DNA of 64,000 bases, from positions 186,001 to 250,000 of the IMG/VR virus record IMGVR_UViG_3300044712_000810. One strand, 5' to 3'. A model generated the notes under the pieces. It saw only the letters and a list, made by a program, of their open reading frames with translations. It was not told the origin of the DNA and ran no database searches. The translations under genes and the position numbers were made by a program. Origin of the DNA: a virus. Shown piece by piece: positions 15,288-43,399 of the stretch. Each line of letters opens with the position of its first letter. Within the stretch, counting starts at the first letter, position 1.

Positions 15288-15298
15288 TCTTGAATAAT

Positions 15299-15330
15299 AA
15301 AAAAGTGGACGGGCATATGCCCAATCCACG
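15299..15330 (-). terminator. Terminator of CTM array 15332-19059
   Basis: On the minus strand GTGGA and TCCAC enclose an inner GGGCATATGCCC palindrome, followed by TTTTTTATT. Confidence 0.85.
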
Positions 15331-15331
15331 G

Positions 15332-15867: not shown

Positions 15868-16118
15868 ACATACTCCAATAAGTATTTTTGCATTTTAAGT
15901 GTCATGTCATCATCGACAAGCGATTCAATTGTACTCCAGAAAGCATTGATTAATACCTTCTTATGAAACTCTTTATACTCTATTTCAAATATCATTGGTT
16001 GTCCCATCATATTATGTCGTTTAACACTAATACCTAACATGCTAAGTATAGTTAAATCATTATGTATGTATTTAGACATTACATTAAAACATGTGTTTAA
16101 TAATGTTTCATCATTCAT
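15864..16118 (-). CDS. Small CTM array protein
   Basis: An 84-aa protein of unknown function ending DDDMTLKMQKYLLEYV. ATGA overlap; upstream tail LLVERI. Confidence 0.85.
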   Translation of the reverse strand: MNDETLLNTCFNVMSKYIHNDLTILSMLGISVKRHNMMGQPMIFEIEYKEFHKKVLINAFWSTIESLVDDDMTLKMQKYLLEYV

Positions 16119-16363
16119 ATGCGTTCCACCAATAGTTTAAGCATTTTAATCCTTATATCTTCGTCCATAAATTGTTTTAGTACATGTGACCAATAACCAT
16201 ATCGGTCATTATCAGTAATAGGATCAATGATATATTCCTGATCTTTATAATATATTGCTTCGTAATTAAGTTGTTCATAATATGTAAGTCCAAAGTATTC
16301 ATAATACTTTACTGGGCCGAAGGTCTCTTCAAGAAACCATTCGATAAGTTTATCATCGGTCAT
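16115..16363 (-). CDS. Small CTM array protein
   Basis: An 82-aa protein of unknown function ending DEDIRIKMLKLLVERI. Tyr-rich middle (YYEYFGLTYYEQLNYEAIYYKDQEY). ATGA overlap. Confidence 0.85.
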   Translation of the reverse strand: MTDDKLIEWFLEETFGPVKYYEYFGLTYYEQLNYEAIYYKDQEYIIDPITDNDRYGYWSHVLKQFMDEDIRIKMLKLLVERI

Positions 16364-16647
16364 ATGTGTTCAACCACATATTTTTGCATTTTTATATATA
16401 ATTCATCATCCATAATGTCGTATAACATGTTTATCCAACTATTTAAATCATATTTAGAACAGTGTGGATCAATAGCATATTTAAGTATTTCTACTTTTTT
16501 ATTTTTGTATTTAAAATATTCCATAAATGTTTTTTCTTTACTTGGAACTCCATATACTCCAAATGATTCTAGTGTATCCCATAAATTATATGGAGGTAAT
16601 TCAAATATTAATCTGAATGTTAATATAAATGTTTTATCATATTTCAT
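16360..16647 (-). CDS. Small CTM array protein
   Basis: A 95-aa protein of unknown function ending DDELYIKMQKYVVEHI; central YFKYKNKKVEI. ATGA overlap. Confidence 0.85.
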   Translation of the reverse strand: MKYDKTFILTFRLIFELPPYNLWDTLESFGVYGVPSKEKTFMEYFKYKNKKVEILKYAIDPHCSKYDLNSWINMLYDIMDDELYIKMQKYVVEHI

Positions 16648-16946
16648 ATGTGTTCCAATATATATTTCTGCATTTTAATTAATATATCATCATCAAAGAT
16701 TTCACAGAATGCATCAATCCATTTTTGTTTACCTACTGGAGTATTTGCAAGTCCGATTTTATAAATATAATGTTGTTTATTTTTGTATTTATAATGTATA
16801 TCACCATACAGAGCTTTAGGATTATATCCATCGCGATCTTCGCTACGTGAATAATCTGTGAATTCAAAGTATTCACGATATACAATATCGTTAATTGATA
16901 ATTCAACAAATGTTTTTATAAAGTCGTAGTAAGGATGTTGATTCAT
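16644..16946 (-). CDS. Small CTM array protein
   Basis: A 100-aa protein of unknown function ending DDDILIKMQKYILEHI; central IHYKYKNKQHYIYK. The upstream gene ends IIKTL, so the SD here is weak. Confidence 0.85.
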   Translation of the reverse strand: MNQHPYYDFIKTFVELSINDIVYREYFEFTDYSRSEDRDGYNPKALYGDIHYKYKNKQHYIYKIGLANTPVGKQKWIDAFCEIFDDDILIKMQKYILEHI

Positions 16947-17206
16947 AATGTTTTAATTATAAATTTTTGCATGTTCACGCGAAGATCTTCATCCATAAAA
17001 TGATTTAATATATATCTAAATGAATCACGATTCCATGAAGCGCCACCGTCGATTTCATATCGACATGGAGGATCATTTATATTCATCGATTTATCTTTAT
17101 AATGAATACGTTCAGGAAATGTAATTCCAATTTGATAGAATACAGTCCTGTATGGTTTGTGTTTTAGTTCATGGTCAAGATACAACTCGATTAGATCTTT
17201 GTCCAC
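16943..17206 (-). CDS. Small CTM array protein, GTG start
   Basis: An 87-aa protein of unknown function ending DEDLRVNMQKFIIKTL. It starts with GTG sharing one base with the upstream TAG (TAGTG), after SD CTGGAGG encoded by the upstream LLEAL tail. Confidence 0.85.
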   Translation of the reverse strand: MDKDLIELYLDHELKHKPYRTVFYQIGITFPERIHYKDKSMNINDPPCRYEIDGGASWNRDSFRYILNHFMDEDLRVNMQKFIIKTL

Positions 17207-17532
17207 TACAACGCCTCCAGTAAGTATTTTTGTATTGCAATTCTGATATCATCATTGAATATTTGTTTCATGCATCTATAGACTGAATCACGTTGTAGTT
17301 TTGATAAATAGTATCTGTATTCAGGAACATCTATATTAATTTTTTTATTATTTAACTGTACTTCTATACCATCGTAATGTGTTTTAGTGACATAATGATA
17401 TAAAGATATATAGTTCCACTCAATATTTAAAGTTTGCAATAGGTGTTCAAATGAATAGTTCTTATATCCATTAATATAATAACAGTGCGCGTCAATAAAC
17501 AAGTTCACAAGTCTGCAATCAGCCAGTTTCAT
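17206..17532 (-). CDS. Small CTM array protein
   Basis: A 108-aa protein of unknown function ending DDIRIAIQKYLLEAL. It is longer than most because of a Tyr-rich N-terminal half (HCYYINGYKNYSFEHLL). ATGA overlap with SD CTGGAAC. Confidence 0.85.
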   Translation of the reverse strand: MKLADCRLVNLFIDAHCYYINGYKNYSFEHLLQTLNIEWNYISLYHYVTKTHYDGIEVQLNNKKINIDVPEYRYYLSKLQRDSVYRCMKQIFNDDIRIAIQKYLLEAL

Positions 17533-17795
17533 ATGTGTTCCAGTAAGTACTTCTGCATTTTGAGAATCATATCATCATCAACAATCCTCATTAAAGTATC
17601 TTGCCATGTTTCAGTATGAAACTCATGCATTTTCATTTCAAATATAATATTACCATTAATCTCAAATATCATATCACAATCTAATCTATGGAGTTTAAAA
17701 TCCAAAAACTCATCTATACTTTTATTACTTGTATTTTCATAACCAAAATACATATCACAAAACATATTAACTAACTCTTGTGTCGTGGATTCCAT
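17529..17795 (-). CDS. Small CTM array protein
   Basis: An 88-aa protein of unknown function ending DDDMILKMQKYLLEHI. It starts 18 bases after the upstream stop with its own SD (GGGAACC), a break in the overlap chain. Confidence 0.85.
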   Translation of the reverse strand: MESTTQELVNMFCDMYFGYENTSNKSIDEFLDFKLHRLDCDMIFEINGNIIFEMKMHEFHTETWQDTLMRIVDDDMILKMQKYLLEHI

Positions 17796-17813
17796 GTATG
17801 GTTCCCAAACCCG

Positions 17814-18095
17814 TTATATATTTTCTATTATGTACTTTTGCATATTAAGTATGAGTCTTTCATCATGTAATTTATGAAACAATTGAATATAATTACCACG
17901 TTTCCATTTAGATAAATGTTTGCAGTTATTAATAGTAAACACTCGATTATCATATGTAACTTTAAGAGTACGTTGTTGATATTTATAAGTGATATCAAGT
18001 ACATCAAATATATCCATCCAATAAAGGTAACTTTTATCTTTACTTTTAAAGTAATTTAGAAACAGTAGTACTTCATCAGGGGCTTTAGGAAACAC
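17814..18095 (-). CDS. Small CTM array protein, GTG start
   Basis: A 93-aa protein of unknown function ending DERLILNMQKYIIENI. The frame is open to 18116, but SD AAGGAG precedes the GTG at 18095 by 6 bases, which is therefore preferred. Confidence 0.75.
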   Translation of the reverse strand: MFPKAPDEVLLFLNYFKSKDKSYLYWMDIFDVLDITYKYQQRTLKVTYDNRVFTINNCKHLSKWKRGNYIQLFHKLHDERLILNMQKYIIENI

Positions 18096-18105
18096 GTAAC
18101 ACTCC

Positions 18106-18387
18106 TTACAGTTCAACGATTAAATGTTTTATCATATTGAGACGTATGTCGTCATCAAAGAAGTATCTGATTACTTCATAATAATTTCTAGTTCCATACT
18201 TGTGTTTAAGATCTTCCGCCCATAACTGTTTACCTTTATACTCATAATATAATACTGCTAACCTATATTCAGGATTATCTACTAATTTAATTTTAATTGG
18301 ATCATAATAATCTCTAAACCTTAATGTTACTAATGAATTAATTGAACTAACATACTTTCGCATTAGATTGTAATCGTCCAATAACAT
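18106..18387 (-). CDS. Small CTM array protein
   Basis: A 93-aa protein of unknown function ending DDDIRLNMIKHLIVEL; central LYYEYKGKQLW. It starts just after the upstream TAA. Confidence 0.85.
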   Translation of the reverse strand: MLLDDYNLMRKYVSSINSLVTLRFRDYYDPIKIKLVDNPEYRLAVLYYEYKGKQLWAEDLKHKYGTRNYYEVIRYFFDDDIRLNMIKHLIVEL

Positions 18388-18388
18388 A

Positions 18389-18718
18389 TTATAAGTCCAT
18401 GATCAATTGTTTTTGTATGTTTATCTCAATGTCTTGATCAAAGAAATGTCTTATCACAGTAACATTACGTCTTTCCCAATCATATTGTATGTAATTACAA
18501 TTAGTAAGGTTAATGTAGTTATCTTTATATTTTAAATATAATGAATAAGTTCGATAATCATAATGTTGATTGATATTTAGATTAGTTAATATCGCATGAT
18601 CTCGATCCATTGCACTTTTATCACGATATAATGCAATATACTTTCGTAGTAATATATATTGATGCTTCAGTACTAATGGTGGTTTATGATATATTTGCAT
18701 AAACGGAACAACTGTCAT
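18389..18718 (-). CDS. Small CTM array protein
   Basis: A 109-aa protein of unknown function ending DQDIEINIQKQLIMDL. TAATG junction with the upstream gene; SD CAGGAG lies in the upstream VIQEL tail. Confidence 0.85.
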   Translation of the reverse strand: MTVVPFMQIYHKPPLVLKHQYILLRKYIALYRDKSAMDRDHAILTNLNINQHYDYRTYSLYLKYKDNYINLTNCNYIQYDWERRNVTVIRHFFDQDIEINIQKQLIMDL

Positions 18719-19059
18719 TACAACTCCTGTATTACATACTTCTGAACGTTAAGAAACAACTCATCATCCATAAAGTGCAATATAATACGTGGAACTTCAG
18801 TACGCCACCATGATACATGTTTCATATTTTGAGTATCGTATATTATAGTCATGTCTTTATAAGTGTATTCTGTTGCAGATGCATCATTATGTTCATTATT
18901 AGAAGTAATTCCAATATCTTTGAATTGTGTTTGTCTAGTTAAAGCATATTGTATTCCAATTTTTATTTGCATTTTAATATATTGATTGACTATTTTACGA
19001 TATTTTCTTTTATTGATTTGATTAATTGTTAGTAGTTCAGACATTTTTATTGTAGTCAA
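18718..19059 (-). CDS. First gene of upstream CTM array operon
   Basis: A 113-aa protein of unknown function ending DDELFLNVQKYVIQEL. A TTG at 19059 with SD TGAGG 10 bases upstream, or the ATG at 19044, could be the start. It heads a 13-gene operon to 15332 and is preceded by a sigma70-like promoter. Confidence 0.75.
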   Translation of the reverse strand: MTTIKMSELLTINQINKRKYRKIVNQYIKMQIKIGIQYALTRQTQFKDIGITSNNEHNDASATEYTYKDMTIIYDTQNMKHVSWWRTEVPRIILHFMDDELFLNVQKYVIQEL

Positions 19060-27223: not shown

Positions 27224-27961
27224 TTACTTAAGATCAAGTCCTGCTGCAAATCCGTATATGTTTTGTCCACCATCATCAGAAACAAATACTAAACGATCTA
27301 TTCCAGCAGTAGTTAACGTTGGTTTTGTTCCACCACCCCATTTTACATTGGGTGACCAAGTAACAGTATATGCTCCACCATTAGCCATACTTAATACAAC
27401 AGATGCAGATTGTCCTTGTGAAGCACTTGGAAATCCACTAAAACTTATAGTACATGCACCGCCAATTGTTACCAATTGAACTACACCTTTTGTAATATCA
27501 ACTGTAAAACTTGATGTTTTTGTATTATTATTAAATACAGTTTCAGTATATTGTGTAAAACGTTGATTTAAAAATCCAGCAGAATCACTCATTGCAAATA
27601 TTAATGCTTTACCAGATGTTGGTTCAGAGAAGTTTAAAATAATACTATCATTATTAGAAAATGTTATAGTTGAAGGGAAGTTAATATCACCTTCTTCATC
27701 ATATACTACAACAATTAAATCTTGTGAGTTCAACCCGTGAACAATTGACCACGTGGATGTAACTGCTGTTTGAACATGTTTATAATGTTGATTTTCTCTA
27801 GTTAATGGACGCCATGCTTGGACTCCTTCTACTTCTGTCCAAATATATAAAACGCCGCCAACTAATGCGAATTGCCCAACAGTGGGTGAAGTCGGAAAAG
27901 TATCATTATCATTTTTGAGGATTAGTTTTCCTCTACATGTAAAATCTGCAAGAGCTTTCAT
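27224..27961 (-). CDS. Tail fibre protein with shared anchoring domain
   Basis: A 245-aa protein. Residues about 8-130 closely follow the N-terminus of the 591-aa fibre at 39952-41727: F-P-x-SPT-[VI]-GQ, [VL]-LYI, W-x-PLT, HxLNS, the run NLSF/LNFSE and GKA-[LV]-[IV]-FA-x-SDS. This is probably a common domain for attaching fibres to the baseplate. The C-terminal half is beta-rich with no recognised domain. Confidence 0.75.
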   Translation of the reverse strand: MKALADFTCRGKLILKNDNDTFPTSPTVGQFALVGGVLYIWTEVEGVQAWRPLTRENQHYKHVQTAVTSTWSIVHGLNSQDLIVVVYDEEGDINFPSTITFSNNDSIILNFSEPTSGKALIFAMSDSAGFLNQRFTQYTETVFNNNTKTSSFTVDITKGVVQLVTIGGACTISFSGFPSASQGQSASVVLSMANGGAYTVTWSPNVKWGGGTKPTLTTAGIDRLVFVSDDGGQNIYGFAAGLDLK

Positions 27962-29464: not shown

Positions 29465-29968
29465 TTATGCGCACCAGAAACACCAACAGTTTCCATGGCA
29501 ATCACTATGACAGTTACAGTTTCCATGACAGTTACTATGACAATCACCAGACCAGTTACAATCACTATGACAGTTACTATGACAGTCTGAGTGACAGTTA
29601 CTATGACAGTTTGAGTGACAGTTTGAATAATATGCATCACAAACACATGCAACTTCATCGGTATTAACATCAGACTTAATTAAGTTTAATGTAGTACCGG
29701 CGATAATTTCACCAGTAGAAACATTTGAATAACCAGTATGTGTTGCTATTGTTTCTGCTGCACTTCTAAGATTGTTAGTATCTGTTGTTGGAATAATTGT
29801 TCCAACTGTTGGTGACGGTATAGAAGATGTTGCCAATCCTCTACGAGTTTGTTCACGAACAATTGCATTCGCGACTTCAATATATGCGCCAGTTTGAATC
29901 ATACTTCCAGTACTTGTACCATAAGACCACACGGTGGCATTTGATGCACAAGGAGGTATTCTACCCAT
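29465..29968 (-). CDS. Cys-rich repeat protein, candidate radical SAM substrate
   Basis: A 167-aa protein. Residues 1-105 are ordinary (AIVREQTRRGLATSSI, then TGEIIAGTTLNLIKSDVN). The last about 58 residues hold about 15 Cys, mainly as a four-residue repeat C-H-S-[ND] (NCHSNCHSNCHSDC), then CHGNCNCHSDCHGNC and CWCFWCA at the end. The gene follows two radical SAM genes without a gap (ATG overlaps the stop region of 29961). A conserved leader with a modified repetitive core is the architecture of radical-SAM RiPP precursors; metal binding is the alternative. The encoding DNA is a 12-base tandem repeat. Confidence 0.8.
   Translation of the reverse strand: MGRIPPCASNATVWSYGTSTGSMIQTGAYIEVANAIVREQTRRGLATSSIPSPTVGTIIPTTDTNNLRSAAETIATHTGYSNVSTGEIIAGTTLNLIKSDVNTDEVACVCDAYYSNCHSNCHSNCHSDCHSNCHSDCNWSGDCHSNCHGNCNCHSDCHGNCWCFWCA
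29488..29627. repeat. 12-base tandem repeat encoding C-H-S-[ND]
   Basis: Imperfect repeats of the type CAGTTACTATGA and CAGTTTGAGTGA on the plus strand, in frame with the Cys repeats of the minus-strand gene. Copy number could vary between isolates by slippage. Confidence 0.75.
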
Positions 29969-31202
29969 TATTATACTCCTTTTTAATATTTATAAATTCG
30001 TTCTTTTTATGTGATATAATTCTATTTAATATACATACACGTTGTTCAACGTTAAAATCATACCATTTATCATAATAATTTTCTTTATTGCTGGCATCAT
30101 ATTTATCTTTATTACATTTTACACAATATAAAGGTGAACAGTCGACACATTCATCATCTAGTTTTGTTGATGATTCATATTTATCATGTTCCATTTTACT
30201 CTTCATGAGATCATTATAGAAATCTAATTCTATATGTGATATCATATGATCTTTTTTATTTGGAGTATATAATGTTCCATGACACTTATATATAAATCCA
30301 TCAATATCTATTGTAAATAAATCTTTACCAGCAAAACAATTACCTATTTGTTTTTTCTCTAGTAACCATGAAAAGAATGGTTTGACATTACGATCCTTTT
30401 CCCAACGATCAAGTTCGAAGTGCATTATCTTATATATCTGTAATTCAAGATTATGTAATGCAAATCTAAATGATTTTTTGTCAAGTGCTGTAACAGATTG
30501 GCCACGTTCTAATGTTGGGCAATAGCCTTTCATTATATGTGGTGCATCAGGGAATGAATTCTGTAAATCATATATATCACAATATGATTCATATACGTAA
30601 TTTACACTTTTTAATGGTATTGTGCTTTTGATTGAATGTACAACGCCATATTTCATACAGTTTATAATATTTTCACGGACTTTGTCGCCGCAGATTCTAT
30701 TGTATTCGTTAATTGGATTACCATCGTAACTTATTTGAGTTATAAGTTTAGGTTCTCCAAATGCAGTCATGTGTTTTGAATAAAAAATCATATTCTCAAA
30801 AATATTTTCTAAATATATTCCATTAGTATATAGTGTGAATTCTACATTTTTAAAGTTTAAGAAGTATCGTAACATAAATTTGATTGCTGGATAATTTAAT
30901 GTAGGTTCGCCACCCCAAAATGTAATATTTAATACATCATAATTCTGTTTAAAATGATCAGTTTTAACTAATTGTTCGAGTTTATAACAAGTGAGATATA
31001 TTTGATCTTCACTAAAATAAAGTTTATCAAAATGTCCTTTCTCAAAACAATAAGAACATTTAGAATTACAGTCATTTGTAAGATTTATTTCAATTGTTAA
31101 ACGTCTAAGATTTGGTTTATTTGTAAATTTTGGTTTTTGATATAAATCTAACGCTGATGATATATATTTACGAAGTTCATCTTTATAATTAAATTCTAAC
31201 AT
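29961..31202 (-). CDS. Radical SAM/SPASM enzyme
   Basis: A 413-aa protein. Cys45/Cys49/Cys52 (DCNSKCSYC) bind the SAM cluster; FWGGEPTLNY is the GGEP motif. The C-terminal SPASM region has CFAGKDLFTIDIDGFIYKC, then DECVDCSPLYCVKC and a last Cys (RVCIL). This set of auxiliary-cluster ligands is typical of enzymes that modify ribosomal peptides (anSME/sactisynthase-like). It lies directly upstream of the Cys-rich repeat gene, making that its likely substrate (inference). Confidence 0.9.
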   Translation of the reverse strand: MLEFNYKDELRKYISSALDLYQKPKFTNKPNLRRLTIEINLTNDCNSKCSYCFEKGHFDKLYFSEDQIYLTCYKLEQLVKTDHFKQNYDVLNITFWGGEPTLNYPAIKFMLRYFLNFKNVEFTLYTNGIYLENIFENMIFYSKHMTAFGEPKLITQISYDGNPINEYNRICGDKVRENIINCMKYGVVHSIKSTIPLKSVNYVYESYCDIYDLQNSFPDAPHIMKGYCPTLERGQSVTALDKKSFRFALHNLELQIYKIMHFELDRWEKDRNVKPFFSWLLEKKQIGNCFAGKDLFTIDIDGFIYKCHGTLYTPNKKDHMISHIELDFYNDLMKSKMEHDKYESSTKLDDECVDCSPLYCVKCNKDKYDASNKENYYDKWYDFNVEQRVCILNRIISHKKNEFINIKKEYNNG

Positions 31203-32143
31203 TTCTTAAAGCTCCCAATCTCACTACCTTGATTATTGCATAAGTTACGGTAATTTTTAAAGAATACAGATTGATATGTATTATATTTAGGTCTTGCTCG
31301 AACACCTTCTTGTGGGACTAAATATATATCATTTGTCATCTTTGTAAGTTTAATACATTGATGTTCACAAATAGAACATACTTCCTGACACATTTTGATT
31401 TTGTATTTCTTGTATATTTTATTCATGTAACATGCTTCAAGAATATCTTTCAATTGATATGCATCAGCATCAGGATGATGATTATCTATTTCATTCCAGT
31501 TATGTGTAATAGAAAATCTATGAACATTCGGATAATATTCACACATATAAACCATATCATGAACAATATGATCTATATTTTGTTTATTTACAGTATATGC
31601 AATACCATAACGAATACCAGAATGTTTTAATATTTCTAATGCTTCTTCGATTTCTGATTTAGCTGATTGTTTATTTCCACGCCAAATACGTCTATCAGAA
31701 TGTGGACCATCATAACTAACTTGAACTAGAAATGTACTATTGTGTTTTGATGTAATTCTTTTATTTAATTCTAATAACTCATTGATATATTTCTTTACTA
31801 ATATACCATTAGTTTCTATCATAATATTCAAGTATCCATCTATTTTTGCGAATACTTGTTCCATAGTATATAATATAGTATCCATTCGCAGTAATGGTTC
31901 GCCACCAAAGAATAATAAACCAGTAGGTCCTTTAGTTCCTTCGCGTTTGATTATATTATCAATAAATGCATCAACTTCTTCTTTTGATGCATCGCGTTGG
32001 TAATCACCAAGTTCTTGTCTTTTTTCTTCTTCAAAACAATATTCACATGCTAAGTTACAACGAGTTGTAACATATATAATATTCATTTGGTGGCCGGTAA
32101 TCTTACTAGCATCTTCTTCAAATATTTGAGACGCTTTAACCAT
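31196..32143 (-). CDS. Radical SAM enzyme, short
   Basis: A 315-aa protein. Cys29/Cys33/Cys36 (RCNLACEYC), GLLFFGGEPLLR, and a compact C-terminal Cys set (CQEVCSICEHQC). It is too short for a full SPASM domain. It overlaps the next radical SAM gene by 7 bases, suggesting the two act together. SD GGAG. Confidence 0.9.
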   Translation of the reverse strand: MVKASQIFEEDASKITGHQMNIIYVTTRCNLACEYCFEEEKRQELGDYQRDASKEEVDAFIDNIIKREGTKGPTGLLFFGGEPLLRMDTILYTMEQVFAKIDGYLNIMIETNGILVKKYINELLELNKRITSKHNSTFLVQVSYDGPHSDRRIWRGNKQSAKSEIEEALEILKHSGIRYGIAYTVNKQNIDHIVHDMVYMCEYYPNVHRFSITHNWNEIDNHHPDADAYQLKDILEACYMNKIYKKYKIKMCQEVCSICEHQCIKLTKMTNDIYLVPQEGVRARPKYNTYQSVFFKNYRNLCNNQGSEIGSFKKC

Positions 32144-32152
32144 GAATTACTC

Positions 32153-32839
32153 CTACAAATATTTTAACAACTTGTTCTTATTTCCAAGTGTAAAAGTTGA
32201 TGTTTTAACTGCTAAATACATTAATGATACTAGGCGCGGATGTGTTAGTTTTATTTTTGATAGATTTGGTTGAATGATTGTATCAAAATATTTAATAACA
32301 TCATCTTCTACTGCTGTTTTATCTTTACACAGTGCAATAAAGTATGAACTAATTAAATATGATTTACGACTATCTTCATTTATTGTTATTAAATATTTAA
32401 CAATAGCATCAAATCGTCTATTATTAAGTAATATTTTATATTTAATACAATACCTATCAAGATAATACATTATACCATCAAACAATGCATTATCTGGAGC
32501 ATCACCAGACTTAATTATCTCTTCAACATATGATGTTGAAATATCAAAGTTATTAAGATTAACTAGACAAAACAAAATATCATGTAACCAATCACTTTGT
32601 GTGTATTTATCTTTTATTAATGTTTCTTTATTTACATTAAGAAAAGTGAGCGCATCATCAAATTTATTTTGATTTATAAGATCAAAATAATAATTAAACT
32701 TATCATTTCCACGTTTAGAGCTTAGATCTTCATGAATAATTTTCTTTTGCCAATCTTTTAAATATTTAATTGTAAACTTAATAAGTTTATTATATTTACC
32801 TGTATAAAATTCTGATTCATCCATAACTCTATTAATCAT
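32153..32839 (-). CDS. Unknown helical protein in radical SAM operon
   Basis: A 228-aa protein of unknown function. Almost entirely helical with repeated pairs of amphipathic helices (FDDALTFLNV, NNFDISTSYVEE, RRFDAIVKYL), perhaps a TPR-like scaffold. It could hold substrates or enzymes together; no motif proves this. Confidence 0.75.
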   Translation of the reverse strand: MINRVMDESEFYTGKYNKLIKFTIKYLKDWQKKIIHEDLSSKRGNDKFNYYFDLINQNKFDDALTFLNVNKETLIKDKYTQSDWLHDILFCLVNLNNFDISTSYVEEIIKSGDAPDNALFDGIMYYLDRYCIKYKILLNNRRFDAIVKYLITINEDSRKSYLISSYFIALCKDKTAVEDDVIKYFDTIIQPNLSKIKLTHPRLVSLMYLAVKTSTFTLGNKNKLLKYL

Positions 32840-32852
32840 TTTATTATCTCCA

Positions 32853-33437
32853 TTACTTAGTTTGGGACAACTGTTCCTTCACATAAGCGATAATAGCGTT
32901 TACTTCATTTTCGCATTCCGCATCTTGTTCTTTTGTGAGTCGAACCATTGGTCCTTTAATTCTTGCTTCTTTATTAATCCATGTATTCGAAGTGACACCT
33001 TCGTGACCACTTACTTGTAAATATGCTGCAACTTGTGGTGCAGGTTTGGTTTCTGGAATATATTTTAAACTTCCATCAGGATTTCTATCAGCGAATTTTT
33101 TGACCGGCTCTGGACATTGTGGACATCTTTCAACTGGATCATCACCACAATTACATGAACGTTTTTCAGGAACTACCGTTGGTGGTGTTTTTGATGGACA
33201 TGCACTACAACCAACAACTTCATCTGGTCCGTTTTTGGCATTTTGTTCTGCACAATCACACGAACCAAATGCTTTAGTAAATTCATAATTATAATCAAAT
33301 TCTGCACCAACTGTTTTAGCGCAGAAAAACATAATAGTTTCTGACATCATTGGATTTTTATCTTTGAAATACATTGCACCTTTCATTAAACTAGATAGTG
33401 CATCTAACATTTCGTCTGGGATTTGTCTTTCTTCCAT
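32853..33437 (-). CDS. Cys-rich protein, candidate modification substrate
   Basis: A 194-aa protein. A central 50-residue stretch holds CDC, CSAC, CNC, CPQC with Pro-rich spacers (CPSKTPPTVVPEKRSCNC). The flanks are non-Cys and helical. It overlaps the upstream radical SAM gene by 34 bases. SD TTGGAGGA. It could be a metal-binding carrier or another substrate of the enzymes around it. Confidence 0.75.
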   Translation of the reverse strand: MEERQIPDEMLDALSSLMKGAMYFKDKNPMMSETIMFFCAKTVGAEFDYNYEFTKAFGSCDCAEQNAKNGPDEVVGCSACPSKTPPTVVPEKRSCNCGDDPVERCPQCPEPVKKFADRNPDGSLKYIPETKPAPQVAAYLQVSGHEGVTSNTWINKEARIKGPMVRLTKEQDAECENEVNAIIAYVKEQLSQTK

Positions 33438-34543
33438 GATTTCTGTCCTCCAAATTTAGTGATTTGATCTGTAAAATATTTCTGGAATGGTTCAAAATCT
33501 TTAAGTAGATCAAAAAGTCTTAAAGATTCACGAATAGTAATTTTAGTTACTTCACAAAAACCATCTAATGGTTCTTTAATCCATTCACCATCACACTGTT
33601 TTAATTCCTGATTAAGACATCCTGTCATACAAACAAATTTAACTTCACAATCTTTGCATTTAGGAACAAAATCAGGGACTAATATATCAGGTCTAGAAAA
33701 TAAATCCATATTTTCAGGATACCATTCATTTGTTCTATAATTTAATATAGGATATTTATGTTCATGTGCAAATCTTCCACATGGATATGCATTTCCATCT
33801 GGAAAAAATGATATCATCCATGAACATGCTTCACATGCTCTTATTGATTTATTCCTAGATCCTAAAGCCAGCATAAATTCAAGTTTCTCTCGAAACATCG
33901 TTGGCATATTAGGTATTCCAGATTTCCAATATTCTACTATTTTATCAACTAATTGAGGACATGTTTTATTAAAAGTTTCAACACCTTCGGGTGTCCAACC
34001 TTCTTTAATAAAAGCAAAATCCATAAATGGCCATTGCAATCCTTCAATAAAAAAACGATAGTTGTCAACTAATGTTGACACATTATCATTGGATACCATA
34101 CAACGTGAACGTCCAAATTGTTTAAAGAATTGTATACGTTTCATATATTCAGTAAATGAATCTCCACCAGTTTGTAATGGTCTGTTGGTTTTATTCCAAA
34201 GTCCATCAAAACTTAATGTGAATCCAACATCGTGTGATTTAAGGTAGTCAAACTTCTCTTGATCCATTAATAGACCGTTGGTTGGGAATATAATACGAAC
34301 AATTCTTTCATCTTTGCCATATGTTTCAATGAAATATTTAATCAAATCATATCGAATCAATGGTTCACCACCAAAGAAAGCAATGACGGCAGTTTTATGA
34401 CCATAAACTCGTAAATATTCATCAAGATTAGACACGATTGTATCTAAATCTTCTTTAGTCATGTCATCTTTATCATGCTCAATATAACAATATTTGCAAT
34501 TCAAATTGCATTTTTGTGTTAGAATTACTTGTAATGTTAACAC
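33404..34543 (-). CDS. Radical SAM/SPASM enzyme
   Basis: A 379-aa protein. Cys12/Cys16/Cys19 (KCNLNCKYCY), VIAFFGGEPLIR, and a complete SPASM set: CEACSWMISFFPDGNAYPC, then CKDCEVKFVCMTGC and CDGEW/CEVT. The layout matches peptide-modifying maturases. It directly follows the 86-aa Cys-tailed gene at 34556. Confidence 0.92.
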   Translation of the reverse strand: MLTLQVILTQKCNLNCKYCYIEHDKDDMTKEDLDTIVSNLDEYLRVYGHKTAVIAFFGGEPLIRYDLIKYFIETYGKDERIVRIIFPTNGLLMDQEKFDYLKSHDVGFTLSFDGLWNKTNRPLQTGGDSFTEYMKRIQFFKQFGRSRCMVSNDNVSTLVDNYRFFIEGLQWPFMDFAFIKEGWTPEGVETFNKTCPQLVDKIVEYWKSGIPNMPTMFREKLEFMLALGSRNKSIRACEACSWMISFFPDGNAYPCGRFAHEHKYPILNYRTNEWYPENMDLFSRPDILVPDFVPKCKDCEVKFVCMTGCLNQELKQCDGEWIKEPLDGFCEVTKITIRESLRLFDLLKDFEPFQKYFTDQITKFGGQKSWKKDKSQTKC

Positions 34544-34555
34544 ATATACTCCTAT

Positions 34556-34816
34556 TTATTCACCATGACATGCAGTGTGACAATCTACATAAGGACCCAT
34601 ACATTCACATGTTTCATATTGTTCTTGAATTATTACATCTGATTTTTTATTATGGGCATCATATAATACTACAACTTTGATATATTCCATATGAGGACCA
34701 ATAAGACATTCAAATTTTGTATTTGAAAATCCATCTTTGATTTTCTGAATATAAGCTAACATTTTATCATGCGGCATACTTTTTTTAGGAATTAAAAATT
34801 CAGTAATAAGTTCCAT
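34556..34816 (-). CDS. Small protein with Cys-rich tail, RiPP-precursor-like
   Basis: An 86-aa protein. Residues 1-65 form an ordinary helix/strand domain; the last 18 residues (CECMGPYVDCHTACHGE) carry four Cys. The CHTAC element matches the C-H-[ST]-x-C pattern of the repeat protein at 29465. It lies between two radical SAM/SPASM genes, with a TAATG start overlap to the upstream one, the classical location of a precursor peptide. No experimental analogue is recognised. Confidence 0.8.
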   Translation of the reverse strand: MELITEFLIPKKSMPHDKMLAYIQKIKDGFSNTKFECLIGPHMEYIKVVVLYDAHNKKSDVIIQEQYETCECMGPYVDCHTACHGE

Positions 34817-36042
34817 TACAAACCTCTAAATTTTAAATATTCATCACGAAACTGATGTCGATAACAATCATTACAATTCTTACACTCATCAGGAAGTCTT
34901 TCTTTACCAAACATTGCACGACGTAAGTGTTGATATTCTAAACTATTCCATGCACTAAATATATCAGTACATGTATTTATATTTAATTCTTTATCAATTT
35001 CACTTAAATCATTAAAATATTGCAATGTACTACAACATGGTCTAACATTTCCTTTCGGATCAATATTAAACCGTGTCCACGGCGCATAACACCATGGCTC
35101 TTTTATTTCTTTATCTTTTAATTCGGCATAATATTCTTTTATTAAATCATTTATATGCCTATTAGGTAATGTTTTATTATATTTTTGTTTTGGTATTTTG
35201 GCCAAAAAATCTATATAAGGATTAGTTTTTGGAATTTCAATCTTATTTACTTCAATGTTTTTTGGTATTTCATAAACATAAGTATAAACTGAATTTCGAC
35301 GTTCATTTCGAATGAAATCAAGTTCAGTACTACTAAAATTATTAAATGTCATTGGAATATCGCGAACTTCATTATAGAAATTATTTAATACGTATAAATC
35401 TGTATCATCTATTTCATATTTCTTAAGTTCTTTCCAAAATCTACATTTTTGAAGTAACATTGTACTTGCTTTATATTCTTTACATATTTTATAGAATTCG
35501 TCTAAATACATTATACTATATTTAGTTATTAACATACTTAAAATTAAATTTACATTTGGTAGTTCTTTTTTAAGTAATTTTAGATTATATAAAACATTAT
35601 CTAAATTACCACCTCTTGTTTTCTCATATAAATCTTTTGAAGGTGCATCAATACTAACAATCATTGATTTAACATTTTCAAAATGTTTCAATTCGACCGT
35701 ATGAAACAATGTGCCATTTGTAGTTATATGGACATTATTGTTAGCATATGCTACGGTTGCCTGTAATTGTGGGTCAAGAAATGGTTCACCTTCAGCAGTT
35801 ATAAGAATGTGTTCACAGTTTTGTAAGAATGGTAATATTTTCAATTCAAAATTCATAGGTAATGCCATTCTTCGAAAATGACTATTGTCAGTATTTGAAT
35901 ACTTTGAATAATATGGACAATGAACACATCTAAGATTACATTTATTACTAACAAATAACATTAAACTTTGTGGATAACTATATATTATTTCTTTTTGTAA
36001 TGCAATCTCAAATAGATTTAATACTTTTAGTTTATCATTCAT
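34816..36042 (-). CDS. Radical SAM/SPASM enzyme, sister of the 5087 gene
   Basis: A 408-aa protein. Cys35/Cys39/Cys42 (KCNLRCVHC) and C-terminal CYAPWTRFNIDPKGNVRPCC with ECKNCNDC. It is clearly paralogous to the enzyme heading the collar operon at 5087-6337. TAATG start overlap with the upstream gene. Confidence 0.9.
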   Translation of the reverse strand: MNDKLKVLNLFEIALQKEIIYSYPQSLMLFVSNKCNLRCVHCPYYSKYSNTDNSHFRRMALPMNFELKILPFLQNCEHILITAEGEPFLDPQLQATVAYANNNVHITTNGTLFHTVELKHFENVKSMIVSIDAPSKDLYEKTRGGNLDNVLYNLKLLKKELPNVNLILSMLITKYSIMYLDEFYKICKEYKASTMLLQKCRFWKELKKYEIDDTDLYVLNNFYNEVRDIPMTFNNFSSTELDFIRNERRNSVYTYVYEIPKNIEVNKIEIPKTNPYIDFLAKIPKQKYNKTLPNRHINDLIKEYYAELKDKEIKEPWCYAPWTRFNIDPKGNVRPCCSTLQYFNDLSEIDKELNINTCTDIFSAWNSLEYQHLRRAMFGKERLPDECKNCNDCYRHQFRDEYLKFRGL

Positions 36043-37700
36043 TATTCAAACCTTGTAGGTTTAATATTTAATTGTTTTTGAGCGTTGGTAATATACTCAT
36101 TATCTTTTCGATAATATGTTTTGATAATATCCATAACATGTTGTTTATTTTTACAACATTTATATAATGCGAACAATAAATGTTGTGGTATACCGCGATT
36201 GTATGGTATTAATAAATCAAATGCTGATTTATAAAGTCCTTTTTTATATCTTTCAATTTGATCATAATCAAATCTTTTTGATTCACGATATAAATCATAA
36301 TGAAATGTAACATTCTTTTCATTATTGTCTGTCAATACTTTATCATCTCCATCAAAGTTTTTATGTTTTTTGATAAAGTGTACTGGATCTATAATTAAAT
36401 CATACTTTTCTGGATTTGTGTAAAATTCGCTATTATATGTTAGATAAAAACTATTGATTGCCACTGTATTTACTATTTCTATATTTTTTAAGATAAAGTG
36501 AATTGTTTCACTAGTCGAATGTTCATCATCGTATGGTAAACCAAATATAAAGTTCAATAAAGTCCATATACCAGATTTATGGCACCAATAAGTACCCTCA
36601 AGTATTTGATCTTTAGTAACACCTTTATTAATATATTTTAACATACGGTTATTAACACTTTCTGCACCAAATGATAAATGTCTACATCCGGCTTCATAAC
36701 ACATTTTAAAGAAATCTTCATCAACAAACTTATACTGACATGAATTTGACCAAGTAACTTGTTTCATATTCTTACGAATAAACCAATTACACATTTCATC
36801 AGCAATCTTTCTTGATGGATTAATACATGTATCTTTAAAGAATATATTATTTACACCTTGATCAACTAATCGTTCAATATTATCAAATATATCTTGTGAT
36901 TTACCACGATGATAAGTCGCAGTTGATGAACTACAAAATGCACACTTATTAGTACATCCGTAAAATGTATTAAAAGATGCTTGAAAAAACCAATCAGATG
37001 GTATATTAAGACCTTCTTTTGGTATATTGTAATAATCGAGTATATAATTATAACTATATTTTAAATCTTGTGTATTTTTTGGTAAAATGCTAGACATGCG
37101 ATGTTCTTTATGTAAGCGTCCAGCATTTCCAACTTTATTATCGACTAATAATTGACGTAAAGCTTCTTCATTTGGAATAGTACCAATATGAAGTATATCA
37201 ATAAATGATTTATCTTCTAACTTTTTAATATGTGTTTGTAACATTGATGCGTTATAACCACCAACAACAATTTTTGAATCTGGATATACATACCTTAACC
37301 ATTTTAACAACATGATATTAAGATAACTGGTTGGTGATATATCTATTGTTGGAGCATCTTGATATGATACAATGGATGCTAATATATATTTATATTTTTT
37401 ATGTAGATTTAAATTATTATCTACAATGTTATGTATTTTAGCTGGCCATAATGGATGTTTGAATAATTCTATGGCATTATCAAAATCATGTGGATATTTA
37501 AAATTTTCACAAAAGTTTTCAAATGTAGTATATTTCTTTAATAAATATGCATCAAAATCATAATAATCTATATTATGATCTGATTTTAAATACTCTGCAA
37601 ACATTGCAGGAGCATAATGACTAAACTTTAATGGCTTATATAATGGATTTTCATATGTAAATCTTGTCGGCATTGATAAAATTAAAACGTCCGCTTTCAT
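36042..37700 (-). CDS. Radical SAM protein with N-terminal B12-binding-like domain
   Basis: A 552-aa protein. About 200 N-terminal residues (FSHYAPAMFAEYL, KIVVGGYNASML) resemble the cobalamin-binding Rossmann part of class B radical SAM methyltransferases, but no DxHxxG motif is seen. The radical SAM core has CTNKCAFC and FFKDTCINPS, GAESVNNRMLKYINKG. The start at 37700 follows SD AGGAAG. Paralogue of the 38403 gene. Peptide C-methylation is one possibility. Confidence 0.85.
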   Translation of the reverse strand: MKADVLILSMPTRFTYENPLYKPLKFSHYAPAMFAEYLKSDHNIDYYDFDAYLLKKYTTFENFCENFKYPHDFDNAIELFKHPLWPAKIHNIVDNNLNLHKKYKYILASIVSYQDAPTIDISPTSYLNIMLLKWLRYVYPDSKIVVGGYNASMLQTHIKKLEDKSFIDILHIGTIPNEEALRQLLVDNKVGNAGRLHKEHRMSSILPKNTQDLKYSYNYILDYYNIPKEGLNIPSDWFFQASFNTFYGCTNKCAFCSSSTATYHRGKSQDIFDNIERLVDQGVNNIFFKDTCINPSRKIADEMCNWFIRKNMKQVTWSNSCQYKFVDEDFFKMCYEAGCRHLSFGAESVNNRMLKYINKGVTKDQILEGTYWCHKSGIWTLLNFIFGLPYDDEHSTSETIHFILKNIEIVNTVAINSFYLTYNSEFYTNPEKYDLIIDPVHFIKKHKNFDGDDKVLTDNNEKNVTFHYDLYRESKRFDYDQIERYKKGLYKSAFDLLIPYNRGIPQHLLFALYKCCKNKQHVMDIIKTYYRKDNEYITNAQKQLNIKPTRFE

Positions 37701-38406
37701 AAGACTTCCTATACTCAAGCATAATATGTTCACTGATATCTTTTACATACTTACAAAAAGTAGAATATGATAAACCTCTATTTTCAATTTGAATACAATA
37801 ATTCAAATTTCCAAAATGTTTTCGATCATGTGATACTGATATTATATAATTCATTTGTGTATGTCCACATTTATTCATAGCTTCTGACATTAATTGATCA
37901 AATACATACAAATCATATGAACTTGAATAAAAAATTACATATAATACACATCGATTATGACCTTCACATGATGATATTGTCTTCATTCCACAAATAAGAT
38001 TGATTGCATCACATAAAGGTTTAACATTTTTATCTATTTTATTTTTAGTATCGATATTTATCATATAATTTGGTCCAAACAAATCACCACTTGATGTTTG
38101 TTGTGGTAAATATTCACGATATTTAACTTGTTCATCGTCAGTTAATCTACGAATTTTAACATTATCAATACTTTTTAGAAATGTTTCCAAAAATGCTTTA
38201 AGTTTATCACCAAATAGTTCCGAAAATGGTGAAACAAAACAAACATTTTCAAAAATATGAACAAATTCTAAATCTTTATCATAATCTTCAGGAAATTCAC
38301 CAATATCAACTATAAATTTATTAAGAAGATCATTTAATTGATCTTTCCATTCATAATTTTCAGCAAATATTACAAACATCCGTCTAAATTCACAAATAGT
38401 TATCAT
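37651..38406 (-). CDS. Unknown protein between two radical SAM genes
   Basis: A 251-aa protein. The motif GMKTISSCEGHNRCVLYVIFY (from about residue 139) resembles the short SCEGH-type block of some phage and TYW3-like proteins. The rest is unrecognised. It is in ATGA overlap with the upstream radical SAM gene and overlaps the downstream one by 50 bases, so all three are translated together. Confidence 0.7.
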   Translation of the reverse strand: MITICEFRRMFVIFAENYEWKDQLNDLLNKFIVDIGEFPEDYDKDLEFVHIFENVCFVSPFSELFGDKLKAFLETFLKSIDNVKIRRLTDDEQVKYREYLPQQTSSGDLFGPNYMINIDTKNKIDKNVKPLCDAINLICGMKTISSCEGHNRCVLYVIFYSSSYDLYVFDQLMSEAMNKCGHTQMNYIISVSHDRKHFGNLNYCIQIENRGLSYSTFCKYVKDISEHIMLEYRKSYESGRFNFINADKIYI

Positions 38407-39902
38407 AAAACCTTCCTGTAATATTTATCAATCATATCTCTAACTATAGTTTTATCATTATACATATCATAAAGTGCAAATATTAAATGTTGTGGTACAC
38501 GCATATGATATGGATTTAGATAATTAAGAGATATATTGTGTAATTTTGTTTTATATTCTTCAATTTCATGAAAGTCGAGTCTATCAATTTCGCGATATGC
38601 GGGATATTGAAACTCTGTAGTTGGGTCTTCTTCAGGTTTGACTTGTAAAGTCTTGTCCTTATTCAATGATGGAATACGAACAATCGACACATTTTTATTA
38701 AATTCAAGACCATACTTGTGTGGGTTTTCATAAAAATCACTACCGGCGGTCATATAAAACCGACTAAGTGTAATTTCATCAATATGTTTTATATTTTTCT
38801 TTATTAGAGCAATAGTAGTGCCAACTGTTGTTTCATCATCATATGGAAACCCAATAATAAAATTAAGTAAATTCCATATACCAACTTCACTACTATCCTT
38901 AGTACGTTCAAGTATTTCATCTCTGTTTGTATTCTTATTAATATATTTCAACATATCATTATGAAGACTTTCAGCGCCAAAACATAGTATTCGGCAACCG
39001 GCATCATATAACATATGAAAAAAATCTTTACTAGTATTATGAAAACAACATGAATTTGACCATTTGATATTCAAATTCTTTTTAATAAACCAATTACATA
39101 ATCTTTCGGCATATTTTATAGATGGATTAACAGAACTATCTTTAAAGAATAAAGTATTTACACCTTGATCATATAATTTTAATATACAATCATACAATTC
39201 ATTCTCATCTGGTATACACAATTTACTTTGTTGCCGACAGTAGGCACATTTATTGGGACAACCACGAAATGATATGATTGATGATTGAAAAATGTATTTA
39301 TTTGGATTTGGCCGAAGATCTGGAAATCCATATTGATCTAAAATTTCTTTATATGAATATCTTAAATCATTTTGATTTTCAGGTAATATACTTGTGTAAA
39401 AATCATCTACATGATTATGGTTATTTGTACCATTTAATAAATTGTCAAGATCACACTTATCGTTGATATTTTTATTATATATAATATCAACGATATTTTT
39501 ATTAATATTTTTTTGTATCTTCAATGCTTCTTTTCCACCAACTATTATTTTTGCTGATGGGAATCGTTTTCTTAAATACTCTAAAATTAAAATATTCAAG
39601 TCAATTGTCTTATTTCTTCCCATCGAATGATCTTGACGATGAGGCAGACAAGAACATAATATATAATTGTATGATTCTTTTAAATTTAAAGAATCAAACA
39701 TTTCATTCAAATTTATATTATTACAATTTTGATATCGTTTTGATAATAATACATCAAGATCGTAATAATCAACAACATCATCTTTTAAGTATTTAGCAAA
39801 AAGAGATAATGCGTAACTACTAAATCTCATTGGAACTGAATTAATTTCATTTTTATCTAATGTAAATAAACAAGGCATAGTTAATAATAAAAACGTACGC
39901 AC
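38403..39902 (-). CDS. Radical SAM protein, B12-type layout, GTG start
   Basis: A 499-aa protein. The GTG at 39902 follows SD AGGAGGA; the frame is open to 39941 but would start inside the hairpin. CPNKCAYC (about 220 residues in), FFKDSSVNPS and FGAESLHNDMLKYINKN match the 36042 paralogue block by block. It has the N-terminal Rossmann-like region (KIIVGGKEAL). First of the enzyme block. Confidence 0.85.
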   Translation of the reverse strand: MRTFLLLTMPCLFTLDKNEINSVPMRFSSYALSLFAKYLKDDVVDYYDLDVLLSKRYQNCNNINLNEMFDSLNLKESYNYILCSCLPHRQDHSMGRNKTIDLNILILEYLRKRFPSAKIIVGGKEALKIQKNINKNIVDIIYNKNINDKCDLDNLLNGTNNHNHVDDFYTSILPENQNDLRYSYKEILDQYGFPDLRPNPNKYIFQSSIISFRGCPNKCAYCRQQSKLCIPDENELYDCILKLYDQGVNTLFFKDSSVNPSIKYAERLCNWFIKKNLNIKWSNSCCFHNTSKDFFHMLYDAGCRILCFGAESLHNDMLKYINKNTNRDEILERTKDSSEVGIWNLLNFIIGFPYDDETTVGTTIALIKKNIKHIDEITLSRFYMTAGSDFYENPHKYGLEFNKNVSIVRIPSLNKDKTLQVKPEEDPTTEFQYPAYREIDRLDFHEIEEYKTKLHNISLNYLNPYHMRVPQHLIFALYDMYNDKTIVRDMIDKYYRKVL

Positions 39903-39917
39903 AACTCCTCCTAAATT

Positions 39918-39943
39918 GGGTGGACCCAAACAAGCGTCCACCC
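39918..39943 (-). terminator. Terminator or attenuator before enzyme block
   Basis: On the minus strand GGGTGGAC pairs with GTCCACCC; only AATTTAGG follows. It sits between the fibre gene and the first radical SAM gene, so it may tune how much of the fibre transcript reaches the enzymes. Confidence 0.55.
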
Positions 39944-39951
39944 TTCACACA

Positions 39952-41727
39952 TTAACTAGCTGAATATAACCATGTTGTTCCAGAATAAATAAACTCTACT
40001 CTGGCCCATGCAACGTCAACTGTAAGATCTTCTGCGACACCGCGAATGGTTGAACCATTGCGTATAACTATAATATTGTTTGTAGCAAACATGCCTTTTT
40101 CATCTATTAAACATACACGATCACCTTGTGATGGTGATGCTGGAAGCGTAAAGTTAAAACCAGCAGTTGTTGTATCAGCAATAACATAATCTGATGCGAC
40201 TGCTGTATATGCTGCGCTTTTCTTAAGAATTGTCCAACCACCGCCGCCACCAGATGCTGAAACAACTCCAGATCCATCAATTGAAAGACCTGAACCAATT
40301 TTAATAACACCGGCAACCGATGCTGATGCAGTTGGAAGTGTTGCTGAAGTTAATACATCATTTCCACCAACTTGAAGTTTAGTTCCTGTCCAAGTAATGT
40401 TTGATGATGTTGTGAACTTTCTTGTTGAGTTATCAAAGTATGGAACACCATTATTTACTGGTGAATCTTCACGTGTGGCAACAACTTGTTGATCATTTAC
40501 CATACCAACTGTAAATGCATCTTTTGTTTCATCGAAAATAAATTTATAATCGGTGAGTGTTCCACGATCAACTTGAATACCAGCTTCACCATTTGTTACG
40601 CCGGCTCCAGTTTCACCAGAGTTTACTTCAATTAAGTTATCTTTTGCTGTAATTGAAGTAGTATTAACAGTTGTTGTTGTTCCACTGACTGTTAAGTTAC
40701 CTGTAATTGTTACATCACCAAGACCTGTGATTGTTTTTCCAGTAAAGTCAACAGGTGAATTAAATTTAACGGTTGATGCATTAAAGTTAGTTTCGCCTAT
40801 TGAAGTGAATTGTACTTGTGAACTTGTACCAGAAGCAACAAAACTAATAATACCACCGGATGATTGGTTTTGGAAAAGAATGTTTTTATTTGCATTATTT
40901 GATGGGACTGTTGTTTCGACTCCACCCTTAGCATTTGTTGTAACAGTAGAATCGGAAAGAAGATTTACATCACCTGTTCCAGTAGTTTTAACTGCTAAAT
41001 CTTGATCTATATCTGTTTTAATTGTAATGGTATTTGAAACATCTTCGATAACTTTCTTATCGTTAACATAAAGTGAACTTGCGCCAACACGAACTTCTGC
41101 TGCATAAATGTTAGCAAAACGATTTGTTGCAGACCCAAGGTTACGTGTATTATCACCATCAGGTAAAATATTACCAGTTACACGGTATGAACCATCAAGT
41201 TGATCTACTGCATCAAGAACACCAGTTGTTGCACCAATAGATAGATTATTACCAACTTTAACACCACCAAGTGCTGTTGCTGTTGCGATTGGTAATGTAT
41301 ATGAACCACCGCCAGTGCCAGTTCCCATACCAGCATAAGAATCACTAGCAGCAAAAACTACTGCTTTACCTCTTATTGCTTCTGTGAAACTTAAATTAAG
41401 ACTATTGGCATCAATAAAACTTGGTTGTGTATTTTGTAATTCATCATTTTCATCATATGCAAAAATACCAACAAGTTTACTATTTAAATTGTGTGTAATT
41501 TGCCATAGTGTTGATAGTGTTTCTTGTGTATGAATATAATATAGCGCTTTATTTGTGAGTGGATACCAAGTTGCAGTTCCTCCAATATTTGCATAAATAT
41601 AGAGGACTTGTTCCATGAAACATATTTGGCCGATTGTTGGTGAATCAGGAAATGAAGTAACATTGTCGAACATTACTGTTGCACCAGCTTTCATCTTTAA
41701 ATTCGCGCGTGTATTTAATTGTGCCAT
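39952..41727 (-). CDS. Long tail fibre/virion structural protein
   Basis: A 591-aa protein. The N-terminal about 130 residues are the anchoring domain also present at 27224-27961. The middle holds the fibre segment GNLTVSGTTTTVNTTSITAK, NLIEVNSGETGAGVTNGEAG and GIQVDRG, a conserved block in fibre/appendage proteins of large myoviruses. The C-terminus (KKSAAYTAVASDYVIADTTT and on) is a small beta domain seen at many fibre ends. Good SD (AGGAGA). Confidence 0.85.
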   Translation of the reverse strand: MAQLNTRANLKMKAGATVMFDNVTSFPDSPTIGQICFMEQVLYIYANIGGTATWYPLTNKALYYIHTQETLSTLWQITHNLNSKLVGIFAYDENDELQNTQPSFIDANSLNLSFTEAIRGKAVVFAASDSYAGMGTGTGGGSYTLPIATATALGGVKVGNNLSIGATTGVLDAVDQLDGSYRVTGNILPDGDNTRNLGSATNRFANIYAAEVRVGASSLYVNDKKVIEDVSNTITIKTDIDQDLAVKTTGTGDVNLLSDSTVTTNAKGGVETTVPSNNANKNILFQNQSSGGIISFVASGTSSQVQFTSIGETNFNASTVKFNSPVDFTGKTITGLGDVTITGNLTVSGTTTTVNTTSITAKDNLIEVNSGETGAGVTNGEAGIQVDRGTLTDYKFIFDETKDAFTVGMVNDQQVVATREDSPVNNGVPYFDNSTRKFTTSSNITWTGTKLQVGGNDVLTSATLPTASASVAGVIKIGSGLSIDGSGVVSASGGGGGWTILKKSAAYTAVASDYVIADTTTAGFNFTLPASPSQGDRVCLIDEKGMFATNNIIVIRNGSTIRGVAEDLTVDVAWARVEFIYSGTTWLYSAS

Positions 41728-43368: not shown

Positions 43369-43399
43369 GAATCGGGCCGGATTACTCCAAGCCCGATTC
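43369..43399 (-). terminator. Terminator overlapping gene end
   Basis: GAATCGGGC pairs with GCCCGATTC; on the minus strand ATAAAACCCCTTTTATTATT follows. The hairpin uses the last codons of the gene at 43382. Confidence 0.75.

Follow-up and report, generated by a model that had tools for sequence, protein, structure and literature searches.

Why would a virus carry a protein that ends in repeated Cys-His units, with its gene directly behind a radical SAM (rSAM) gene? This question was raised by one gene in a window of 64,000 nucleotides, bases 186001-250000 of a 314,837-base IMG/VR virus record from a giant phage.

A Cys-His tail behind a radical SAM gene

29465-29968, minus strand: repeat-tail protein, a 167-aa ORF with an ATG start
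29648-29968, minus strand: its N-terminal part, residues 1-107, without a detectable homologue
29465-29647, minus strand: its Cys/His tail, residues 108-167, with nine CH[SG][ND] units, interruptions reading CNWSGD and CN, and a CWCFWCA end
29976-29981, minus strand: AAGGAG ribosome-binding site, 7 bases before the ATG of the repeat-tail gene
29961-31202, minus strand: rSAM protein of 413 aa with SPASM-like Cys, the proposed maturase, directly upstream of the repeat-tail gene with an 8-base overlap

The ORF translation has 17 Cys overall, 15 of them within the last 58 residues. The nine C-H-[SG]-[ND] units span residues 117-160 and the C-terminus reads CWCFWCA. These counts confirmed the first-pass annotation, which had described about 15 Cys in the final 58 or so residues, nine or more such units and the same ending. 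When the codons of the gene were shuffled 20,000 times, the maximum was two CHxxC units, compared to nine in the actual sequence.

It had also been proposed that a 12-base tandem repeat encodes the tail. Tandem Repeats Finder detected an array at 29486-29626 with overlapping periods. The 12-base register was correct, but the repeat is imperfect, as the 12-base unit alone gave 74% and 63% matches and the purest period was 24 bases (2.3 copies, 96% matches). The array is real, and duplicated small ORFs form arrays elsewhere in this phage, so the tail could be a chance product or a neutral expansion of DNA that reads C-H-S-N. However, the residues are kept despite codon differences. Across 144 codon pairs from the repeat units, 78 were identical, 34 synonymous and 32 non-synonymous (N/D or S/G only), and the same residue is written with varied codons (TCA or AGT for Ser, CAT or CAC for His). 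Because the units differ in codons, the motif has been maintained at the protein level and not just as DNA. The same motif also recurs beside rSAM genes in other phages, and a neutral origin, already disfavored, is hardly credible.

The position of the gene directly downstream of a rSAM gene was also borne out, since its start codon falls within the final 8 bases of 29961-31202, a gene with a Radical_SAM domain above the Pfam cut-off. This overlap and the good ribosome-binding site suggest that the two genes are probably co-translated. The SPASM match of the rSAM protein reached 24.4 bits against an NCBIfam cut-off of 27, and a seven-Cys SPASM-like pattern was seen by eye. Its best NCBIfam matches were peptide maturases, all far below cut-off (PapB, 6e-14; TIGR04115, 8e-9). 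Relatives of this enzyme were found in 22 cultured-phage records and none in viral contigs. The best were from Campylobacter phages (28-29% identity), and no CH tail was found in their fetched neighbourhood.

For the repeat-tail protein itself, a direct search found no relatives in viral contigs or among cultured phages, and comparison with PHROGs gave nothing meaningful. An AlphaFold model from the one sequence was useless (pLDDT 36). The tail could have been a known metal-binding domain from a family unrelated to rSAM genes. No Pfam family and no NCBIfam match above cut-off was found, and those relatives of the tail that were found are rSAM-linked.

Further rSAM genes and candidate substrates in the window

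31196-32143, minus strand: second rSAM protein, 315 aa, with a 7-base overlap with rSAM 29961-31202
32853-33437, minus strand: Cys-rich 194-aa protein (CDC, CSAC, CNC, CPQC), a possible further substrate, starting inside rSAM 33404-34543
33404-34543, minus strand: rSAM protein whose top NCBIfam hit is the PapB ranthipeptide maturase (130 bits, 1e-37; cut-off 340)
34556-34816, minus strand: 86-aa protein with the C-terminus CECMGPYVDCHTACHGE; its start coincides with the last base of rSAM 34816-36042
34816-36042, minus strand: rSAM protein of the twitch type, by NCBIfam match
36042-37733, minus strand: rSAM protein resembling B12-dependent types, by NCBIfam match
38403-39941, minus strand: rSAM protein resembling B12-dependent types, by NCBIfam match
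27224-27961, minus strand: tail-fibre-like protein near the repeat gene (PHROG 9017, 3e-11)
39952-41727, minus strand: tail-fibre-like protein on the far side of the rSAM cluster (PHROG 972, 4e-9)

Eight Radical_SAM matches were found in the genome record: six in the run 29961-39941, which is flanked by tail-fibre-like genes, one at 5087-6337 and one outside the window. The order of a rSAM gene followed by a CH protein occurs twice in the window (29961-31202/29465-29968 and 34816-36042/34556-34816). The end of the 34556-34816 protein, CHTACHGE, is the sole other CHxxCH site in the record, and from its sequence this protein is a candidate second small CH-bearing substrate. The Cys-rich protein at 32853-33437 matched no family above cut-off in Pfam, NCBIfam or PHROGs.

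Several other features of the window were noted. The two B12-dependent-like rSAM genes (PhpK, HpnJ; 36042-39941, minus strand) adjoin a tail-fibre gene. The rSAM gene 5087-6337 (minus strand) ends 2 bases before gene 4078-5085 (minus strand); compared by eye, the latter looks similar to its neighbour 2124-3092, a tail-collar-like protein (tail collar PHROGs). Arrays of small ORFs (~90-180 aa) lie at 35-19059 and 43382-49186 and show, by eye, a common C-terminal signature, e.g. DDDLxxxxQKYxxEHI or HMDxxKxxIQKExLxRV. A RNA polymerase beta'-like gene (56332-60847, plus strand) consists of two pieces separated by an ORF (57402-58148) that looks HNH-like by eye. Searches with this polymerase found no relatives of the phage in viral contigs and distant ones only among cultured phages.

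Similar tails in other phages

Tails of this kind were found by motif scans of viral contigs and not by homology to the window protein. A scan for the C-H-[x]-[ND] triplet gave 13 stretches, 10 of them with an in-frame ORF, and all 10 ORFs end at or just past the motif. A looser scan gave 34 stretches, of which 19 were kept. Typical CH tails read CHSNCHSNCHGSRSRR, with the consensus end C-H-x-S-C-H-x-S-C-H-x-S-R-x-R-R. The rSAM gene beside one of these tails (locus L013) has counterparts of 39-50% identity in seven cultured phage records, and in all four regions read, the next gene ends in a CH-type tail. The tails in cultured phages are CHSSCHASCHNSRSRR in Agrobacterium phage Atu_ph07 (gp170), CHTSCHASCHSSRSRR in Sinorhizobium phage Phosso, CHSSCHTSCHGSRGRR in Burkholderia phage FLC6 (gp72) and CHTSCHTSCHSARGRR in Pseudomonas phage pPa_SNUABM_DT01. 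All four proteins are annotated as hypothetical, and each gene comes immediately after a rSAM gene.

A scan of viral contigs for CHxxCHxxCHxxRxxR followed by a stop gave at least 120 stretches, 116 of those listed being new, and among the matches listed 115 of these 116 had an ORF with that end. The pattern itself fixed C, H and two of the R positions. The S/N positions, the preceding G/S and the penultimate R (present in 139 of 140 distinct tails among the matches listed) are independent of it. Three tandem units were counted in 154 of 156 tail ORFs and four in the other two (among the matches listed), counts that are uninformative on variation since the scan patterns demanded three units. 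Several CH-tail proteins matched the PHROG family phrog_35144 through their C-terminal part, L019 best of all (2e-7); with E <= 1 as the limit, 8 of the 10 that were scanned gave a match.

rSAM genes accompany the tails

A rSAM ORF lay within the fetched stretch in 92 of the 115 tail loci among the matches listed. When whole records were searched for the remaining 23 loci and 7 more, 29 of the 30 gave a Radical_SAM match (26 above the Pfam cut-off), with commonly about five matches per record. Thus, a rSAM gene is present in 114 of 115 tail-bearing records (among the matches listed), the exception being one 18-kb record, compared to 2 of 15 controls. The controls were viral loci of the looser scan with the pattern out of frame or in a short ORF (57-93 aa), deemed spurious by eye with the rSAM column in view during the choice. 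The Fisher value (5.5e-15 among the matches listed) overstates independence because many tail loci are related.

Locus and gene-order counts were made with a rSAM HMM of our own, based on 20 rSAM proteins taken from the window and from the fetched loci. Among the matches listed, a rSAM gene lay within 100 nt of 74 of 156 tail ORFs, and in 73 of these 74 it was directly upstream on the same strand. For the other tail ORFs, it was 100-2600 nt away in 29, further in 15 and absent from the fetched stretch in 38. The proposed tie between repeat and rSAM gene therefore extends to many phages, where similar tails accompany rSAM genes in the same gene order, and to two bacterial RiPP-like cassettes described below. 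The converse does not hold throughout. Campylobacter phage CP220 has 11 rSAM proteins (PMC2853527) and no CHxxCHxxCH among its Cys-spaced matches, suggesting that phage rSAM clusters also have other roles.

The adjacent rSAM proteins of the family resemble peptide-modifying SPASM maturases (PapB, DynA), and SPASM was above cut-off in three of four tested. PapB is among their best NCBIfam matches, always far below its cut-off of 340. Anaerobic sulfatase maturases, which turn Cys into formylglycine within the motif C-x-[PA]-x-R, are another model that they match, best in pPa_SNUABM_DT01 (1.2e-13). The enzymes could then convert a Cys to leave a reactive aldehyde on the particle, with the CHxSR end in place of the sulfatase motif. 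That match is far under cut-off, though (51 vs 349 bits), and other peptide maturase models match equally. Arg is absent from the window tail, and nine units would be a strange arrangement if just one residue is catalytic. We consider formylglycine formation very unlikely.

A folded domain among tail genes

An AlphaFold model of the typical family, made from 45 aligned members, was confident (pLDDT 85, pTM 0.79). It shows a small beta sheet alongside helices, and the final strand leads into the weakly predicted tail. The modelled chain thus ends with the tail, behind a folded domain. Compared with the PDB, it gave no match at E <= 0.001 and none at Z >= 2. Among predicted viral proteins, its matches were uncharacterised phage proteins, including that of Atu_ph07. 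The proteins of a short class (124-140 aa) are often encoded by two tandem genes, and two tandem tail-bearing paralogues were seen in 23 of 115 loci among the matches listed. Loci L166, L187, L194, L245 and others have tandem short-class genes with the rSAM genes elsewhere in the record.

In the loci checked, the CH-tail genes sit in baseplate/tail-fibre modules. At locus L020, the 10 kb upstream encode a baseplate wedge protein (PHROG 438, 2e-60) together with a tail-fibre protein. Tail-fibre proteins are nearby at L014 and its relative L013, and Phosso encodes a large virion structural protein that ends ~4 kb upstream of the CH-tail gene. Their folded N-domain and these neighbours give the family proteins the look of particle proteins whose tail is modified. 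Virion proteomics exists for phage RP31 (PMC5468394, available in part); no proteomics naming a CH-tail protein was found in the literature.

Other genes recur next to the tails. A cupin/JmjC-like protein is encoded two genes upstream (48 of 63 in the largest cluster), and two uncharacterised families are encoded downstream (59 of 81 and 36 of 61). Because oxygenases and the cupin/JmjC-like protein share the islands, the tail protein may carry extra modifications, e.g. hydroxylation. The regions of L163 and L164 have 2OG-Fe(II) oxygenases and a cupin/JmjC-like protein within phage rSAM islands.

The motif in bacteria

L313, 6574-12245: bacterial RiPP-like cassette, CHGN repeats ending in RGWR
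L031, 2885-7272: bacterial RiPP-like cassette, CHGN repeats ending in RGWR

A scan of genome contigs gave at least 116 stretches, with most ORFs short or not C-terminal and without a rSAM-like neighbour. L027, L031 and L049 were retained from it. L067 (56 aa, nine CH units) was dropped, as the sole rSAM protein there is the housekeeping HemW. The two RiPP-like cassettes come from a Methylococcales MAG and from Vibrio hepatarius. Their precursors, of 125 and 154 aa, end in CHGNCHGNCHGSRGWR and CHGNCHGNCHGNHSSRGWR and are accompanied by three and four rSAM genes. The CH pattern was present in 1 of 227 genomes of the genus Vibrio. Since the cassettes share both motif and rSAM genes, the motif looks like a rSAM substrate in its own right.

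The resemblance of these cassettes to RiPP loci raises another explanation, in which the tail, once modified, is cleaved from its leader and set free as a small molecule that could serve as toxin, metallophore or signal. CXXX-repeat rSAM targets are indeed known in NCBIfam. In the phages, however, the model predicts a domain with confidence for the N-terminal part, and the genes sit among tail genes with no recognised protease or exporter next to them. A released RiPP is therefore unlikely. The same evidence bears on the first-pass description of the window protein as a leader and a modified core. The rSAM link stands, and a leader and core in the RiPP sense are doubtful, as the N-part of the family is folded and its genes lie among baseplate/tail-fibre genes.

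A more serious rival is a metal-binding tip, with Zn, Fe or Cu held by Cys/His, perhaps across the chains of a trimer, and the rSAM enzymes modifying something else. Cys-His pairs are good metal ligands, and both the baseplate/tail-fibre setting of the genes and the tandem paralogues in 23 of 115 loci (among the matches listed) would suit such a tip. It leaves unexplained the near-constant company of rSAM genes and the occurrence of the same tail in bacterial rSAM cassettes, and the Arg-rich end is not a metal-ligand feature. We find metal binding in place of modification somewhat unlikely, and metal binding could coexist with modification.

Relation of the window protein to the phage tails

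The window protein shares with the family its C-terminal tandem C-H-x-x units (nine vs the typical three) and its gene order, with the rSAM gene directly upstream on the same strand. Its tail lacks the R-x-R-R end of the family and has the aromatic, Cys-rich CWCFWCA instead. Comparison of the window leader with the N-domain of the family gave hhalign probabilities of 0.5% (long class) and 0.4% (short class). The leader alone gave 6.0 bits with hmmsearch --max (E 0.0009, for a one-sequence search). Homology of the leader to the family domain was rejected as unproven. The rSAM protein of the window and the one encoded next to the family's tails are not orthologous (31 bits vs 504 for the Atu_ph07 protein). 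The usual neighbours (cupin and the two uncharacterised proteins) are absent in the window, where the neighbour models hit rSAM proteins only. Judged by these comparisons, the window protein should be called a look-alike of the same logic and not a proven member of the CH-tail family.

A proposed role for the enzymes

On balance, we slightly favor the explanation that rSAM/SPASM enzymes modify the tail Cys of a phage particle protein, and we infer that the tail is their substrate. In the infected cell, the phage's own rSAM enzyme, encoded directly upstream, would act on the repeat-tail protein, targeting the Cys of the C-terminal C-H-x-[ND/S] units. The most likely product would be a thioether link from the Cys to a neighbouring residue of each unit, which would turn a flexible tail into a rigid, cross-linked tip. 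Thioether links occur in ranthipeptides and sactipeptides, and the idea fits because the Cys are evenly spaced and the enzymes are SPASM-type. By this analogy, thioether cross-links are probably the modification, although the chemistry is a guess. The carrier would probably be a protein of the tail/baseplate apparatus, in which case the modified tip would meet the host surface. We infer both the presence of the CH-tail protein in the virion and its role in host contact.

A broader statement is offered more tentatively. Many tailed phages may have a dedicated rSAM cassette that remodels or cross-links the C-terminal Cys-His tip of their own tail/baseplate protein. The window would then be a separately diverged extreme, with nine units vs three and at least one further CH-bearing substrate (34556-34816).

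Phage rSAM clusters have been reported several times. Campylobacter phages CP220 and CPt10 have 11-12 rSAM genes with a guessed role in host metabolism (PMC2853527), Aeromonas phage 332-Vera has eight inside its structural cluster (PMC12390700), pelagimyophages have rSAM cassettes in a host-recognition island (PMC7029224), and rSAM genes were noted without a function in FLC6 and SURPRISE13 (PMC8066314, PMC11898562). Such clusters have been termed "highly unusual" and are left unexplained, and no substrate is named for them in the available portions of these papers. String searches of the literature did not find the CH-tail motif, and model-name searches likewise gave nothing relevant. A fixed tail motif right behind a rSAM gene is a concrete substrate candidate for part of these clusters, and the cultured carriers FLC6, Atu_ph07, Phosso and pPa_SNUABM_DT01 render the idea testable. 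If the tip is modified in particles, RiPP-type chemistry would be built into virus particles, a new viral route to a receptor-contacting or puncturing end.

Comparison with known systems

The CXXX-repeat rSAM systems (TIGR04115/TIGR04117) are alike in having tandem Cys at every fourth residue and a rSAM neighbour. The window rSAM protein aligns to the maturase TIGR04115 over residues 36-377 (E 8e-9), but with 35.4 bits against a cut-off of 350, and the window peptide has no match at E <= 1 to the target TIGR04117. There is likewise no match at E <= 1 between the window protein and phrog_35144, a phage family with no function given.

The PapB ranthipeptide maturase is the best NCBIfam match of the window rSAM proteins beginning at 29961, 31196 and 33404, although all fall far below the cut-off of 340. 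As in PapB-type ranthipeptides, an acidic or amide residue lies near each Cys of the CH units. Freyrasin, a PapB-type ranthipeptide with Cys-Asp thioethers, has the spacing C-X3-D, compared to C-X2-[ND/S] here, and here a phage protein is the apparent carrier. QhpD is a rSAM enzyme acting on a subunit of quinohemoprotein amine dehydrogenase, where the Cys cross-links lie in a protein and not a small peptide. The window rSAM protein matches its model, TIGR03906, only weakly (4e-10).

The long tail fibre of T4, with His-X-His iron sites, and PAAR spike tips, with zinc, are also phage tip proteins with metal ligands at the extreme end. The family model differs in having no structural match in the PDB, and we know of no rSAM involvement in either tip.
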